Below are positions 6,599 to 16,393 of a DNA stretch of 64,000 nt, one piece after another. The translations under genes and the position numbers were made by a program. Source of the DNA: Bacteroidota bacterium (GTDB lineage Bacteria; Bacteroidota; Rhodothermia; JANXDC01); the NCBI GenBank assembly GCA_025059945.1, contig JANXDC010000012.1:1-64000 (forward strand), in the 5' to 3' direction. Position 1 is the first letter of the stretch. The number at the start of each line of letters is the position of its first letter. The notes beneath the pieces were generated by a model that made no database searches, had not been told where the DNA came from, and saw nothing but the letters and a program-made list of their open reading frames with translations.

Positions 6599-7630
6599 GT
6601 GATCTGGCCCAAACCTGAGCTGCAAGAGGCGGCCGAGCGCTTTTGGGCTCGCTTTACTGACCCGGAGGCCGACTTCGAGGGTCTGGCCCTGGAGGCGTTT
6701 CGCCTGCAGGCCCAGGAAAACCCTGTGTACCGAGCGTATCTGAACGCCTTGGGGGTGCGGCCCAACCTCATCACCAGCTGGCGGCAAATCCCGCCCCTTC
6801 CTGTGGAAGCTTTTCGTCATGCTCCCGTCTGCATAGGCCCACCTGAGCGGGCCCAAGCGGTCTTCCAGAGTAGCGGCACCACCGCATCCGGTCGCAGCCG
6901 GCACTACGTGCAAGATCTGCGCTTCTACGATCGCTCCGCTTTGACGCACTTCGCTCAAGCCGTGGGCTCAGGACCCCTGGTGCTCGCCGCCTGGCTTCCC
7001 GGCTACGCGGAGCGCCCCGATGCCTCGTTGCTGTACATGGTCCGGCGCCTCATAGAGGCCTTCGGCCGGCAGGGCTCCGGCTTTGCGTATCCGAGCCTGG
7101 ATCGACTCCGAGGCGCCATCGAGGAAGCCGACCGCAGCGGGAGTTTGTTCGTGCTCTTCGGGGCGGCCTTTGGGCTGCTGGAGCTTTTGGAAACCCATGG
7201 GCCCGTTCCCCTTCCCCCCAAGAGCCTTGTTATCGAGACCGGCGGTATGAAGGGCCGCAGGCGGGAGCTGGAGCGAGGCGAGCTGCACGAGCTACTGGCC
7301 CGAGGTTTCGGGCTTGCGCGCCAGCAGGTGCTCTCTGAGTACGGCATGACGGAGCTGCTCAGCCAGGCTTATAGCCGCGGCGGGGAGGTCTTCTATCCTC
7401 CCAGCTGGATGCGCTTTCGGGTTGTCAGCCCCGAAGATCCCCTTGGTCCGGAGCTGCCCGAGGGCGAACCCGGAGCCCTGGTGCTGGTGGACCTGGCCAA
7501 TTACTGGAGCGTATGCGCGATCCAGACCCAGGACCTGGCCGTGCGCCGGGCTGAGGGCTTCGAGGTGATCGGGCGCTTAGAGGGCGCCCCCCTGCGAGGC
7601 TGTAACCTGTTGTTGGAGCGCGACCTGTGA
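6599..7630 (+). CDS. LuxE/PaaK-family acyl-activating protein
   Basis: A 343-residue protein with a GTG start four bases after queE. It has the signature of the ANL (AMP-forming) superfamily: FQSSGTTASG (residues 89-98) is the phosphate loop and EYGMTELLSQAYS (Tyr248 on) is the A5-type motif. ETGGMKGRRREL and IGRLEGAPLRGCNLLLE fit the short Bacteroidota LuxE-like proteins often called acyltransferases. In luminous bacteria LuxE activates fatty acid as acyl-AMP and passes it to the reductase LuxC. The next gene is LuxC-like and overlaps by four bases, so the two probably form an acyl reductase pair. No luciferase genes are present, so light production is not implied and the substrate is unknown. 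Confidence 0.75.
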   Translation: MIWPKPELQEAAERFWARFTDPEADFEGLALEAFRLQAQENPVYRAYLNALGVRPNLITSWRQIPPLPVEAFRHAPVCIGPPERAQAVFQSSGTTASGRSRHYVQDLRFYDRSALTHFAQAVGSGPLVLAAWLPGYAERPDASLLYMVRRLIEAFGRQGSGFAYPSLDRLRGAIEEADRSGSLFVLFGAAFGLLELLETHGPVPLPPKSLVIETGGMKGRRRELERGELHELLARGFGLARQQVLSEYGMTELLSQAYSRGGEVFYPPSWMRFRVVSPEDPLGPELPEGEPGALVLVDLANYWSVCAIQTQDLAVRRAEGFEVIGRLEGAPLRGCNLLLERDL

Positions 7631-8697
7631 GCGGAGCCCTCTGGGAGGCGCTTCTGGAGACGGTTCGCCTATGGCGCAACTCCTCCTATCCCGTGCGCCG
7701 CGCCGCCGAGGAGGCGGCCCTCCGAGAAAACCCGTTCTTTAGCCCGGAGACGATCCGCTACAGGTTGGATACGCGCCTGCATGATCTCGAACTTGAGGCG
7801 CTCCGGCGCTGGCTGGGACCTGAACTCGTTTCGGATCCCGCTCGGGTGCTGCTGTTGCATCCGGGCAACCTGCCCATGGTGGGACTGGAGGATCTGCTGG
7901 CCACGCTGCTTGTGGGTCATGAGGCCTGGTCGCGTCCTTCACGGCGGGATCGAGCCCTGCTTGTGGCCTTCTGCGAGGACTGGCGCCGGCGCTTTCCGGA
8001 GCTTCCGCTGCGCTGGGTCGAGGAGCTTGAGCCCGCAATGTCGTCGGTCGACGGCCTTATCGCCTCCGGATCCGATCAGACGGCCTCCTGGGTGCGCGCT
8101 CTCGCTCGGCGCGCGGGGCTTTCCCCCGAGCGTCTGCTTGTGCGCGGGCATCGGTTCGGCGTGGCCTGGTCTACGTCCGACTGGGATGAGGCGGATTTTC
8201 TCGGGCTGGCCCACGACGTCTGGCTATATGAAGGGCACGGCTGCAGAAGCGTCTCTCTTGTTTGGGCTCCGGCCGGGCTGGATCCCGAGCGGCTGTGGCG
8301 GGCTTACGCGGAGTTCCGACGCCGGTTCCCCCCCTCAGAAGCGCTTCTGAAGGAGCTGCGCTCGGAGCGGGCCCTGTACGAGGCGCTCAGGCCTTGGCTC
8401 GGTAAATCGTGGTCCGATCCGGGCGGGGTGCTATCCGTAGGTCCTCCGGAGCCGCTTAGGCCCGGGCACTTGCGCTGGGCGGTATACGAGAGCCCGCAAG
8501 AGGTGCTCGACTGGCTTGAGTGCCATCGGAGTCGTCTACAGGTGGTGATCGCCCGTTCGGAGCCGCCCCCGGGCTGGGAGGGCCTCTGGGCCCGACCCGG
8601 AGAGGCGCAATGCCCGGCCCTGGACTGGCGCCCAGACGGACGAGATACCGTGGCGTTTCTGCGGATGCTACGACCTCGCGCCCAACAGGCGGCCTAA
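7627..8697 (+). CDS. LuxC-like acyl-CoA reductase
   Basis: A 356-residue protein starting with GTG inside the stop of the LuxE-like gene (GTGA overlap). The stretch HPGNLPMVGLEDLLATLLVG and the later YEGHGCRSVSLVWAP match LuxC-type acyl-CoA reductases of the aldehyde dehydrogenase superfamily. Cys206 is the likely nucleophile that takes the acyl group before NAD(P)H reduction to an aldehyde. The protein is shorter than LuxC of Vibrio (about 480 residues), as is usual in Bacteroidota. Aldehyde or alcohol production for a lipid or cofactor is plausible, but the physiological product is not known from sequence. Confidence 0.72.
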   Translation: MSGALWEALLETVRLWRNSSYPVRRAAEEAALRENPFFSPETIRYRLDTRLHDLELEALRRWLGPELVSDPARVLLLHPGNLPMVGLEDLLATLLVGHEAWSRPSRRDRALLVAFCEDWRRRFPELPLRWVEELEPAMSSVDGLIASGSDQTASWVRALARRAGLSPERLLVRGHRFGVAWSTSDWDEADFLGLAHDVWLYEGHGCRSVSLVWAPAGLDPERLWRAYAEFRRRFPPSEALLKELRSERALYEALRPWLGKSWSDPGGVLSVGPPEPLRPGHLRWAVYESPQEVLDWLECHRSRLQVVIARSEPPPGWEGLWARPGEAQCPALDWRPDGRDTVAFLRMLRPRAQQAA

Positions 8698-11507: not shown

Positions 11508-12209
11508 GTGCGAGCTTCGGTGACCTACATCGCCTGGGATCTTGAGACGTGTCCGCTTCCTGAGTCCCATCTCTCCGATCGTCATCTGGAGCGCCTGCGG
11601 CTTGAGATGCGCCGACACGGCCAGCGGGCTCCGGAGCTGGATGCAGACGCGTTGCGGCGCAGGGCGGCCAGCTTACATCCGCTGCTAGGTTGGATCGTGT
11701 GCATTTCGGTTATCCGCGCCCCTGATGACCCCGAAGCCCCCAACGAGCCGCGTTCGTATCTGGCCCCTCAGCCGGAGCTGGAGCGGGCGATGCTAGAGGC
11801 CTTCTGGGCGGATTTGGAGCGTTTTCCGGCGGATATGCCGATCCAATGGATCACGTTCAACGGCAAGCGTTTTGACGCGCCGTTTCTGCTGGCCCGTACC
11901 CTCTATCACGGCCTCAGGCCCACGCGGGCCGATCTGCTCACGAGGCACCGATACCGAAATCGCCCTCATTGCGACCTTTGGGCGCTGTTTGCGGATGCGT
12001 CCGTAAACGTAGACCTGGAGGATCTCTGCGCGCTTCTGGGCCTGCCTAGCCCCAAGGCCTATGGGCAGGGCGAGTCCGTCGAGGAGCTGCTGCGCACCGA
12101 GGGGATCGAGGCCGTACGGCGTTACTGCGAGGCCGACGTGCGGGCCACGCTGGCCTGCTTTGCTCGCATCCGGCGTTTGTACCCGAGCTTTGTGGAGGGC
12201 GGTGAGTAG
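11508..12209 (+). CDS. PolB-like DEDDy 3'-5' exonuclease
   Basis: A 233-residue protein with the three exonuclease motifs of DNA polymerase B-type proofreading domains: AWDLET (Asp11, Glu13), FNGKRFDAPFL (Asp123) and RRYCEADVRAT (Tyr206, Asp210). It should remove nucleotides from DNA or RNA 3' ends using two metal ions. It stands alone without a polymerase domain, like the stand-alone predicted exonucleases of many Bacteroidota and Cyanobacteria. The start is GTG at 11508; a second in-frame GTG at 11520 is equally possible and neither has a strong Shine-Dalgarno. Its role in repair is inferred. Confidence 0.78.
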   Translation: MRASVTYIAWDLETCPLPESHLSDRHLERLRLEMRRHGQRAPELDADALRRRAASLHPLLGWIVCISVIRAPDDPEAPNEPRSYLAPQPELERAMLEAFWADLERFPADMPIQWITFNGKRFDAPFLLARTLYHGLRPTRADLLTRHRYRNRPHCDLWALFADASVNVDLEDLCALLGLPSPKAYGQGESVEELLRTEGIEAVRRYCEADVRATLACFARIRRLYPSFVEGGE

Positions 12210-12239: not shown

Positions 12240-13295
12240 ATGGCGGAAGGAAAGCGCTTCACCCCGATCGCCCAGATCGGGCTACCGGAGCTCATCGAGC
12301 GCTTGAAGAGGATGCTTCCGGCGGCAGAGGATCCGGTTCTGGTGCAAGGCATAGGTGACGACGCCGCTGTTTATCGCGTGCACCCGGGTCGGGTGCACCT
12401 GCTGAGCGCGGGGTTTTTGCTCGAAGGCGTGCACTTCGATCCGGCCCTTACACCTTTCGCGCACCTGGGGGCCAAGGTGATGGTTGGACCGGTAAGCAAC
12501 GTAGTCGCTATGAACGGCCGGCCCAGGTACGCGCTCGTCGCCATCGCCGTGCCCAATCAAGTCTCGGTTGAGATGCTGGAGGAGCTTTACCGGGGGCTCC
12601 AGCGCGCATGCGCCCTTTATGGGTGCGCGCTCGTCGGTGGCCAGACCGTTCCCTCCCCCCGGGGTTTGGAGTTGGCCATAACCGTCGTAGGAGAGGCGGC
12701 GGAGTCGGCTGTAACGTATCGGCGCGGGGCCTGTCCGGGCGACCTGGTCTGCGTCTCCGGGGACTTGGGGGGCGCGTATGCGGGGTTGCAAATCTTGTTG
12801 CGAGAAAAAGACCGCTACGAGGCCCATCCGGAACTGGGGCTTCCCGATTTGAGCCCGTATCGGTATGTGGTGGAGCGCCAGCTGGTCCCCTTGGCGCGGC
12901 TGGACGTGGTGGTCGCCTTCGAGATGGCCGGCGTGCTTCCCCGAGCGATGACGGACATCTCCCAGGGGCTGGCCGCGGCCCTGCACGCCCTGTGTCGGGC
13001 CAGTGGCGTGGGGGCCCGAATTCGGGCCAGCGCCATACCGATTGATCTCGCCACGCGCGCCGTGGCTGAGGAGCTCGATGACGATCCGGAGGTGTACGCC
13101 CTGTACGGGGGGGAGGACTACGAGCTGCTCTTTGCGTTAGCGGAGTCGGATTGGCCTACCCTTGAGGCGGTCACACAGGCTGTGACCGTGATCGGCCGTT
13201 TCACGGAGGCCTCCGAGGGGATCCAAATCGAGTACCCCGACGGACGGCTTACGGCGTTGGAGGCGCACGGATGGAAAGGCCCGAGCTCGGCGTAG
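12240..13295 (+). CDS. ThiL/AIR-synthase fold protein with altered metal-binding residues
   Basis: A 351-residue homologue of thiamine-monophosphate kinase. The GIGDDAAV motif (Asp40, Asp41), LLEGVHFD, YGGEDYELLF and the overall length match ThiL. Several otherwise conserved acidic sites differ. The Asp of the TTD-LxEGVHF motif is Gly58, the Asp of NxSDxxAMxG is Asn87, GGDT is GGQT (Gln135) and DISDGL is DISQGL (Gln242). In characterised ThiL these aspartates bind magnesium and ATP. The protein may therefore be an inactive or repurposed relative. The frame is intact and overlaps the next gene by 25 bases. True ThiL activity is doubtful. Confidence 0.72.
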   Translation: MAEGKRFTPIAQIGLPELIERLKRMLPAAEDPVLVQGIGDDAAVYRVHPGRVHLLSAGFLLEGVHFDPALTPFAHLGAKVMVGPVSNVVAMNGRPRYALVAIAVPNQVSVEMLEELYRGLQRACALYGCALVGGQTVPSPRGLELAITVVGEAAESAVTYRRGACPGDLVCVSGDLGGAYAGLQILLREKDRYEAHPELGLPDLSPYRYVVERQLVPLARLDVVVAFEMAGVLPRAMTDISQGLAAALHALCRASGVGARIRASAIPIDLATRAVAEELDDDPEVYALYGGEDYELLFALAESDWPTLEAVTQAVTVIGRFTEASEGIQIEYPDGRLTALEAHGWKGPSSA

Positions 13296-14299
13296 AGGCC
13301 GTTCGAGGGCGGCGCATCCGGACTGTGAGGGCTGAGTCGGTGTTGCTCGGCATGGCCGCCGTTTGGGGTACTACGTTCACGGCCGTCAAGGTGGGGCTTG
13401 CGTACGCTAGCCCACTTGTGTTTTTGGCTTTTCGCTTTCTCTTTGCCTTGGGGTTTCTTTCCCTCTGGGTACGCCCCTGGCGCATGCGTCTGGACCGCTC
13501 GGCCTGGGGCGCTGGGCTGCGGCTGGGCTTCTGGCTGGGCCTGGGCTTTGTGCTGCAAACAGCGGGGCTTTTGTGGACCACGGCTAGCATGTCCGCCTTC
13601 ATCACGGGCACCTCGACCGCCTTTACGCCCCTGCTGGAGCACCTGCTTGGACGCGGCCTTCCGGGCCCGAGGGCTTTTCTCGGCGTGGGCATGGCCCTTG
13701 CGGGCCTATACTGCCTCTCCCTATCCACCTGGCATATGAGCGAACAAGCGCTTGGGGGTTTCGTTCTGATAGGGTTGGGCTTGCTCTGGTTGGCCCGGGT
13801 CCACAAGCTCCCTATGCTAGGTGCCCTTTTGGTGGGTCTGGGCCTATGGGCTGTGCTGCGGGCCGAAGCCGTCTCCTTCGGCATAGGGGAGGGGCTTACG
13901 CTCGCCGCCGCGTTTGTCTGGGCCGTGTATATTGTGGAGCTGGATCACTATAGCGCCCGCGCACCGGCCGGGGCGCTTACGTGGATGCAATTAGCCGTGG
14001 TCGGGGCGATGGCCCTGTTGCTGTTGCCCTGGTTTCCGATTCGCCTGTATCCTCATCCCGCTCTGTGGGGTGGGCTCCTTTATCTGGCCCTAGTGGCTAC
14101 GGTGTTGACGACGTGGTTGCAGACGCGCTTTCAGCGACAGACCACCCCGACCCGTGCGGCGCTGATTTTCGCCACCGAGCCGCTTTTTGCCGCTCTGGTG
14201 GCTTTCCTGCTGCTCGGAGAACGCCTTGGATTGCATGCTTGGTTCGGTGGCGTGCTTATTGTTGGGGCCCTCATGGTTTCAGCCCGACCAGAGGCGTAG
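13271..14299 (+). CDS. DMT-superfamily (EamA) transporter
   Basis: A 342-residue inner-membrane protein with about ten hydrophobic segments arranged as two EamA repeats. The first begins with LLGMAAVWGTTFTAVKVGL and the second with GEGLTLAAAFVWAVYIVELD. The end GALMVSARPEA is a typical short cytoplasmic tail. EamA proteins export or import small metabolites such as amino acids. The start ATG at 13271 lies within the preceding ThiL-like gene (25-base overlap), so the two are probably translated together. The substrate is unknown. Confidence 0.85.
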   Translation: MERPELGVEAVRGRRIRTVRAESVLLGMAAVWGTTFTAVKVGLAYASPLVFLAFRFLFALGFLSLWVRPWRMRLDRSAWGAGLRLGFWLGLGFVLQTAGLLWTTASMSAFITGTSTAFTPLLEHLLGRGLPGPRAFLGVGMALAGLYCLSLSTWHMSEQALGGFVLIGLGLLWLARVHKLPMLGALLVGLGLWAVLRAEAVSFGIGEGLTLAAAFVWAVYIVELDHYSARAPAGALTWMQLAVVGAMALLLLPWFPIRLYPHPALWGGLLYLALVATVLTTWLQTRFQRQTTPTRAALIFATEPLFAALVAFLLLGERLGLHAWFGGVLIVGALMVSARPEA

Positions 14300-14356: not shown

Positions 14357-16393
14357 ATGGCAAACGAGCCCCGCAACCCGTTTTCCTTTAACCGAGACCC
14401 TCGCTCCGATGAGCGGAGGCCGGGCAGGTTTCCGATCTGGATCTACGTGGCGATCTTCCTGGGCTTGCTCATCGCGCAGTTTTACTTTTTCACCCCCCGC
14501 GAACACAATACGATCCCCTATAGCCAATTCCGGGATTACGTGCGCAAGGGCTACGTAGAGCGCGTCGTGATCGTCAACGAGCGTATTGTGGAGGGACTCT
14601 TTACCGAAGCTGCCGTGCGGGAGGGGCTGGTGCGTCTGCCCAGCCCGCGATCTGGGCTTGTGCGGGAGACCGCCCAGCAGCGCCGCGCTTTCCGCACCAC
14701 AAGGCTGCCGGACGACGACCTGACCCAGCTCCTAGATGAGCATAAAATCACCTACTCCGTTCGCTACGAAGACAATTGGATGACGGGCTTGCTAACCTGG
14801 ATTCTGCCCCTGGTCATCTTGATCGCGCTATGGCTTTTCATCTTGCGCCGCATGAATCCGGGTCAGCAGGTGCTGAACATAGGCAAGAACAAGGCGATCC
14901 TCTTCGACCAAAACGCGGAAAACAAGGTCACCTTCAAGGATGTGGCCGGTCTGGATGAAGCCATCGAGGAGGTCAAGGAGATCGTTGAGTTTCTGAAAAA
15001 CCCCAAAAAGTTCACCAAGCTGGGCGGCAAGCTCCCCAAGGGCGTTCTGCTCGTCGGCCCCCCTGGCACGGGCAAGACGCTGCTGGCCAAGGCCGTGGCC
15101 GGGGAGGCGAACGTGCCCTTCTTCAGCATCTCCGGCTCAGACTTTGTCGAGATGTTTGTAGGTGTCGGCGCGGCCCGGGTGCGGGATCTCTTCCGACAAG
15201 CAAAGGAGAAGGCCCCCTGTATCATTTTCATCGATGAGATCGACGCCATCGGACGCAGCCGAGGCCGAGGCATCTGGATCGGCGCCAACGATGAGCGCGA
15301 AAACACGCTCAACCAGCTCCTGGTCGAAATGGACGGCTTTCACACGGATAAAGGCGTCATCATCATGGCCGCCACGAACCGCCCGGACATTCTGGATCCG
15401 GCCCTGCTGCGTCCCGGGCGTTTCGACCGGCAGATTCTGATCGACAAACCTGACCTGAAGGGTCGATACGACATCTTCCGCGTGCATACCCGGGGCCTGA
15501 TCCTGTCTCCGGAGGTCGACCTGTGGCGGCTGGCCGCGCAAACGCCGGGCTTCGCGGGGGCCGAGATCGCCAACGTCTGCAACGAGGCGGCCCTACTGGC
15601 CTCACGCCGCGGCAAGGAGGCCATCGAACAAGAGGACTTTCAGGATGCGATCGAACGCGTGATCGCGGGCCTGGAGAAGAAAAACAAGCTCATCAGCCCC
15701 GAGGAGCGCAAAATCGTCGCCTATCACGAAGCCGGGCATGCCGTTGTGAGCTGGTTCCTGGAGCACTCCGATCCGGTGCTCAAGGTCTCGATCGTCCCTC
15801 GAGGATTGGCCGCGCTGGGCTACACGCTGCAGACCCCTCTGGAGGATCGCTACCTCATGACCAAGGAGGAGCTCATGGATCGGATCTGCGCCCTGCTAGG
15901 CGGCCGCGTAGCCGAAGAGATCGTCTTCGGGCGCATCTCCACGGGCGCCTCCAATGACCTGGAGCGCATCACCAAAATGGCCTACGCCATGGTGACGGTC
16001 TACGGCATGAGCCAGGCCCTGGGGAACCTTTCGTTTATGGACTCCGAAAACCAAAACTTTCTCACGGGCCTGACGGTGGAGAGGCGCTACAGCGAAGAGA
16101 CCGCCCGGCTCATCGATCAAGAGGTCAAGCGCATCGTCGATGAGGCCTATCGGCGCACGCGGGAGCTGCTGGAGGCGAAGCGCGAGCTGCTGGAGCGCCT
16201 GGCTCAGGAGCTGCTTCAGCGGGAGGTGCTCGTGCAGGAGGACATCGAAAAGCTGCTCGGTCCCCGTCCTCACGCCAAGGCCCGCTCCGCCAACAACGTT
16301 CCAGACGGCGCGGCTCAGCGGCAGGAGCCGATCCCCTCAGATGAGGGAGCCCACGTAGAACCCTCCACCGGAAGCCTGCCGGCCCAAGCCTAG
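14357..16393 (+). CDS. ftsH: ATP-dependent zinc metalloprotease FtsH
   Basis: A 678-residue membrane-bound AAA+ protease that degrades misfolded membrane proteins and some regulators. Membrane segment one is at about residues 26-45, then a periplasmic loop to about 142, and segment two at about 143-163. The AAA module has Walker A GPPGTGKT at 234-241, Walker [12 protein letters not shown] and the arginine finger region RPGRFDRQ. The zinc site is HEAGH at 457-461. The C-terminal tail is long, charged and proline-rich, as is usual. An endonuclease/phosphatase-like gene follows after seven bases. Confidence 0.96.

Follow-up and report, generated by a model that had tools for sequence, protein, structure and literature searches.

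A ThiL-derived, probably non-catalytic protein linked to ftsH in a TPK-carrying lineage of the Bacteroidota

The stretch of DNA analysed here (64,000 nucleotides, hereafter the window) encodes a protein that is derived from ThiL and in which several residues of the active site have been replaced. We consider it probable (about 0.75), on the basis of gene and genome sequences, that this protein, which we denote ThiL*, is a conserved pseudoenzyme, that is, a protein that would be functional without being catalytic; and we hold it to be highly probable that ThiL* is not the ThMP kinase of the organism and that thiamine diphosphate (ThDP) is formed through TPK. Both the loss of kinase activity and the flow of ThDP through TPK are what we infer; a new role of ThiL*, structural or regulatory and tied to FtsH, whose gene is co-located and perhaps co-transcribed, is speculative. 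ThiL* would then constitute a new, pseudoenzyme branch of ThiL. It would also offer a clean setting for the transition from essential enzyme to pseudoenzyme, with a graded loss of residues over relatives, a replacement pathway within that lineage, and a single genome that is without the replacement TPK and encodes a canonical ThiL in addition to the pseudo one. Because they score above the curated thiL cut-off, ThiL* genes will probably be annotated as ThMP kinases, and such naming would give wrong thiamine pathways for the Balneolaceae and their relatives. A limited literature search returned nothing relevant on a ThiL pseudoenzyme or on a thiL-ftsH linkage in Balneola; other reports may exist.

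Replaced residues and their distribution among relatives

ThiL* scores 259.8 bits against the TIGR01379 thiL model, above the curated cut-off of 184.15, and stays below all of the NCBIfam equivalog cut-offs of selD (72 of 125 bits), HypE (41 of 252) and PurM (21 of 236). Within the PDB, the AlphaFold2 model of the protein (37 sequences; pLDDT 91.7, pTM 0.89) matches most closely the structure of AaThiL bound to ADP and TPP (3c9u; TM 0.92 by target, rmsd 2.4). The first-pass annotation, made from the sequence of the window, had called the protein a ThiL homologue, with which the score and the predicted fold agree. It had also read Gly58, Asn87, Gln135 and Gln242 in an intact frame where ThiL has aspartates, which is exact both by the codons and by mapping onto PaThiL (Table 1).

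Table 1. Features of the ThiL* locus in the window. Paired values are entropies in ThiL* and in canonical ThiL.
Feature	Position	Strand	Remarks
Predicted 3'-5' exonuclease (PF10108), upstream of ThiL*	11508..12209	+	Order same in congener
ThiL-derived protein ThiL*	12240..13295	+	351 aa, intact frame, TIGR01379 match
Codon 41, kept Asp in GIGDD (PaThiL D30)	12360..12362	+	
Codon 58 GGG, Gly for Asp in TTD (PaThiL D47)	12411..12413	+	Thr in congener
Codon 87 AAC, Asn for Asp in VSD (PaThiL D75)	12498..12500	+	Asn in congener
Codon 135 CAG, Gln for Asp in GGDT (PaThiL D122; Asn in Aquifex ThiL)	12642..12644	+	Gln in congener
Residues 172-190 (VSGDLGGAYAGLQILLREK), C-terminal-domain block	12753..12809	+	More conserved in ThiL*: 0.48 vs 1.07
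Residues 202-220 (PDL..Y..V.RQL.P.AR)	12843..12899	+	More conserved in ThiL*: 0.99 vs 1.63
Codon 239, kept first Asp in DIS (PaThiL D211)	12954..12956	+	
Codon 242 CAG, Gln for second Asp in DISDGL (PaThiL D214)	12963..12965	+	Thr in congener
Residues 264-284 (around AIPIDL.TR.VAEE.DDDPE)	13029..13091	+	Strongest constraint gain in ThiL*: 0.89 vs 1.98
EamA-type transporter between ThiL* and ftsH	13271..14299	+	Pfam EamA; in congener too
ftsH	14357..16393	+	Pfam Peptidase_M41/AAA; linked to ThiL* in all subfamily families

In PaThiL, D30, D47, D75 and D211 are strictly conserved metal ligands, D122 binds Mg at the ATP, and D214 bridges the phosphate of ThMP via a metal (PMC13254938). The assignment of the lost residues to the metal and nucleotide site of ThiL is thus correct, D47 and D75 being ligands and D122 and D214 being residues of the site. 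Aligned to PaThiL, ThiL* keeps two of the four strict metal ligands (Asp41 and Asp239) and has lost the other two (Gly58 and Asn87), and in its SDGL loop Gln242 stands for D214 and Ala250 for H222; the His at position 250 appears to correspond to PaThiL H222, a neighbour of D214 close to the metals (PMC13254938). Also gone are Glu15, Phe16, Asn84 and His250, which are invariant or nearly so in canonical ThiL. One of the four replaced positions, that of the GGD motif, varies naturally in an active ThiL, and because the equivalent of D122 is Asn in Aquifex ThiL (PMC13254938), Gln135 is by itself not disqualifying.

Relatives were taken from 60 genomes of the class, a sample that, as judged against named loci, appears to comprise Rhodothermus-like and Balneolaceae genomes, and from further genomes beyond these 60. 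The ThiL* lineage consists of the families f1 (the window's own), f2, f4 (Balneolaceae), f15 and f16. Shared residues, which the first-pass annotation had taken as the mark of a conserved subfamily, were indeed found. The single congener examined (a one-contig genome) encodes a protein that is 78% identical and has no Asp at any of the four positions, and the loss of Asp242 marks a wider subfamily. Because the congener agrees at positions 87 and 135 and carries non-Asp residues at 58 and 242, sequencing error is excluded; with the loss at 242 being lineage-wide, an error of whatever origin, be it sequencing, assembly or annotation, has a negligible probability. All four aspartates are kept in 79/79 ThiLs of named Bacteroidota and in 29/29 canonical (sister-lineage) sequences of the class, so that the losses are far beyond chance.

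Asp242 is absent from all 31 members of f1, f2 and f4, which have Gln, Lys or Thr instead, three further genomes, from f15 and f16, have Lys or Gln at this position, and the residue is missing from every clearly alignable member of the lineage. Of the four aspartates, the whole subfamily has lost only this one. At position 58, Glu stands in every f2 member and in several of f4 (in Balneolaceae, often); Asn87 and Gln135 are limited to f1 and peculiar to the genus of the window. The subfamily is delimited by the loss of Asp242, Glu15, Phe16, Asn84 and His250, all of which are gone from the protein of the window and from f1, f2 and f4 as a whole, with rare exceptions in f4 and none at Asp242. Since the Balneolaceae members mostly retain the equivalents of PaThiL D30, D47, D75, D122 and D211, their ThiL* may be a kinase with an altered substrate.

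In the protein tree f1 is placed, weakly (support 78-87), beside the canonical Rhodothermales, and a topology with all ThiL* as one clade is not rejected (p-AU 0.47). The synteny that is common to the ThiL* families favours a single origin; the losses may also have occurred twice, in parallel. Residues that had been considered specific to ThiL* (R188/E189 and N106) are also present in other Bacteroidota and are therefore no evidence for one origin.

Gene neighbourhood and selective constraint

The linkage to ftsH was found in 18/18 ThiL* genomes with enough flanking sequence, and ftsH was encountered near none of the canonical thiL loci, among them 0/49 loci of named Bacteroidota with flanks of about 8 kb. 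The order is thiL*-eamA-ftsH in f1, the eamA gene occupying this interval in f1 only, and its listed start overlaps the end of ThiL* and may lie later; in f2 and f4 it is ExbB-ExbD-ExbD-thiL*-ftsH (the Exb names were given by reading of the sequences), and the ftsH linkage is also present in f15 and f16. No TPP riboswitch was found near ThiL*, neither in the window nor around the gene of the congener. At 7627-8697 the window contains a weak match to LuxC acyl-CoA reductase (27.7 bits); in the congener, too, a homologue precedes ThiL*.

Over the whole protein, mean identity is 0.53 in ThiL* and 0.51 in canonical ThiL, and the entropy is 1.55 and 1.50 bits, respectively. The catalytic blocks are all more variable in ThiL* (e.g. 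residues 237-252, entropy 1.69 vs 0.65 in canonical ThiL), and blocks of the C-terminal domain are more conserved (Table 1). The ratio dN/dS was about 0.02-0.11 in those ThiL* pairs with usable dS, as against 0.01-0.18 in canonical pairs, many pairs being saturated. The low dN/dS together with the shift of the conserved blocks implies that ThiL* is under selection and that the kinase site is not what is selected for. The earlier reading of four coordinated changes as the sign of a pseudoenzyme or a new activity, and not of decay, is upheld in so far as the altered protein is shared by five families, under purifying selection and with a synteny of its own; the changes were not simultaneous, and in that respect the reading has to be amended.

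Supply of thiamine diphosphate

A search of the window's genome recovered no other copy of ThiL, and none is present in the one-contig genome of the congener; the weaker matches in the former, PurM and PurL, were ruled out as additional ThiLs by reading their sequences. The first-pass annotation had reasoned that a sole ThiL of this kind would require ThDP to be made in another way, and the genome indeed contains a TPK operon that looks intact and is preceded by a TPP riboswitch. TPK (PF04263) occurs in 31/31 genomes of f1, f2 and f4 and in 0/29 of the remaining genomes of the class, and it is present in f15 and f16 and absent from f17 and f18; the correlation with ThiL* amounts to one, or at most two, evolutionary events and not to 60 independent ones.

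The TPK of the window's genome scores 124 bits against TIGR01378 (cut-off 76.4) and has the motifs GDMDS and DQETND. Its operon (L063) encodes a TonB receptor, TPK and an SSF transporter, and a salvage operon (L062) has the order thiM-thiE-thiD-tenA-HAD-like gene-TonB receptor; both are located behind a TPP riboswitch and both are also found in the congener. ThiC is absent from the window's genome and ThiE is present, as it is in f1, for which reason ThMP should be made in f1; the window's genome is predicted to make it by salvage. Given the operons for ThMP salvage and TPK, and no second ThiL, it is very likely that the organism obtains its ThDP from thiamine by means of TPK. The presence of TPK alone does not force the loss of ThiL, since both TPK (Tnr3) and ThiL have been described in B. 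thetaiotaomicron (PMC5613172). In the TPK operon (L063:5558-10026) the TonB receptor is accompanied by a sodium:solute symporter family protein in place of PnuT, which suggests that the latter protein is a putative thiamine transporter.

The HAD-like gene lies directly behind tenA in the two f1 genomes (L062:10684-11550; L064:5416-6255, minus strand) and was seen only in f1. The encoded protein has no Pfam or NCBIfam match, carries the four HAD motifs (Asp8, Thr127, Lys183 and Asp207/208), with DWSGT (D-x-S) as motif I, and the best PDB matches of its predicted model are, weakly, HAD enzymes. By its position it is a candidate ThMP phosphatase. In plants, the TenA-HAD protein TH2/PALE1 is a ThMP phosphatase (PMC7868968), which the position behind tenA in L062 and L064 resembles; the difference is that the genes are separate here, that motif I reads DWSGT and that the protein is a phosphatase candidate only. 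A comparable route is known from S. aureus, which has no ThiL and in which ThMP made by ThiE is dephosphorylated and then converted by TPK (PMC2766623). The two have in common that tenA, thiM, thiD and thiE form one operon, that tpk belongs to a separate operon and that a functional ThiL is apparently lacking, and they differ in that here an altered ThiL protein is retained, the phosphatase candidate is HAD-like and not a GTPase, and TPK is accompanied by a TonB receptor and an SSF transporter.

Two small-genome Balneolaceae, G314 (L196) and G377 (L197), represent a natural experiment. Their ThiL* lies beside ftsH and is devoid of GDD, VSD, GGD and DIS, that is, of any ThiL motif of the N-terminal domain, with the frames intact and the C-domain blocks kept. 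TPK is present in G314 and absent from G377, and the latter encodes a 674-aa ThiE-ThiL fusion (L195, G377:C113), which includes a masked stretch and the ThiL part of which has all motifs. Taken at face value, G377 would indicate that ThiL* is no substitute for ThiL once TPK is gone; the assembly of G377 is a draft, and the contig with the fusion could be a contamination.

Possible functions of ThiL*

Compared with ThiL itself (TIGR01379; 3C9R-3C9U, 5CC8, 8YKS/8YKU), ThiL* has the same fold, GIGDD loop, first Asp of DIS, GGED motif and length, and it differs by the lack of the four metal/phosphate aspartates and of Glu15, Phe16, Asn84 and His250, by the altered constraint on the C-domain, by the ftsH neighbour and by the TPK of its lineage. 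The retained fold and much of the retained frame, the presence of Asp40/41 and Asp239, a score beyond the thiL cut-off, the formation of ThMP in f1 by way of ThiE and the fact that Aquifex ThiL functions with Asn at the GGD position could all be taken to mean that ThiL* is still a ThMP kinase, the metal site of which was rebuilt with other ligands or a substitute (e.g. Lys/Gln at 242). We regard this as quite unlikely, because f1 is without two of the four strict metal ligands and has lost D122 and D214 besides, because TPK occurs in every ThiL* family, and because G377, in which TPK is missing, encodes a canonical ThiL separately and the ThiL* of G314 and G377 is left without any motif. A catalytic neo-enzyme, performing a phosphotransfer or ATP-dependent reaction in the manner of PurM, HypE or SelD on a different substrate, is unlikely as well. 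The superfamily does span several ATP-dependent reactions (the Foldseek matches of the ThiL* model also include HypE, SelD and AIRS), most members retain Asp40/41/239, and the C-domain has gained constraint; however, the lost residues have not been replaced by other conserved acidic or nucleophilic ones, and G314 and G377 keep only the C-domain blocks and none of the remaining nucleotide-loop residues. That ThiL* is a functionless and slowly decaying relic, as the relaxed catalytic blocks and the redundancy of ThiL beside TPK might suggest, is very unlikely in view of the low dN/dS, the tightened C-domain blocks, the intact frames in all families of the lineage and the conserved ftsH linkage.

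A conserved, non-catalytic ThiL* probably arose as follows. TPK in the ancestor(s) of the lineage would have made ThiL dispensable, with thiamine coming from uptake or salvage and the ThMP product of ThiE being dephosphorylated to thiamine, from which TPK would form ThDP. The site for metal, ATP and the ThMP phosphate would then have decayed, initially by the loss of Asp242 together with Glu15, Phe16, Asn84 and His250 and later by that of Asp58, Asp87 and Asp135, and the folded protein would have been retained for another function via the surfaces of its C-terminal domain (residues about 172-220 and 264-298). A more specific and tentative proposal, to which we assign a low probability, is that the arrival of TPK freed a lineage-wide pseudoenzyme, made from an essential vitamin kinase, to serve FtsH or a coupled process as partner or regulator through its C-terminal domain. 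The FtsH role is suggested by the linkage, and adjacency is no proof of a functional tie.

A paralogue from the PurM-like superfamily, selenophosphate synthetase 1 (SEPHS1), likewise appears to have abandoned the parental reaction and yet to have been kept. It differs from ThiL* in its substrate and in the residues that were lost, and ThiL* is the sole ThiL copy of its genome and not a duplicate.

Second canonical ThiLs that had been supposed in Balneolaceae with ThiE turned out to be SelD or a HypE-like protein, and among these genomes extra canonical copies occur only in G026 and G377. In four Balneolaceae a HypE/AIRS-like protein adjoins thiE (L074:7975-9072, L079:7529-8611, L080:6463-7557 and L081:7918-9018); the L081 copy scores 63 bits of 184 for thiL and 54 bits of 252 for HypE, and the protein is possibly a non-orthologous thiamine enzyme.
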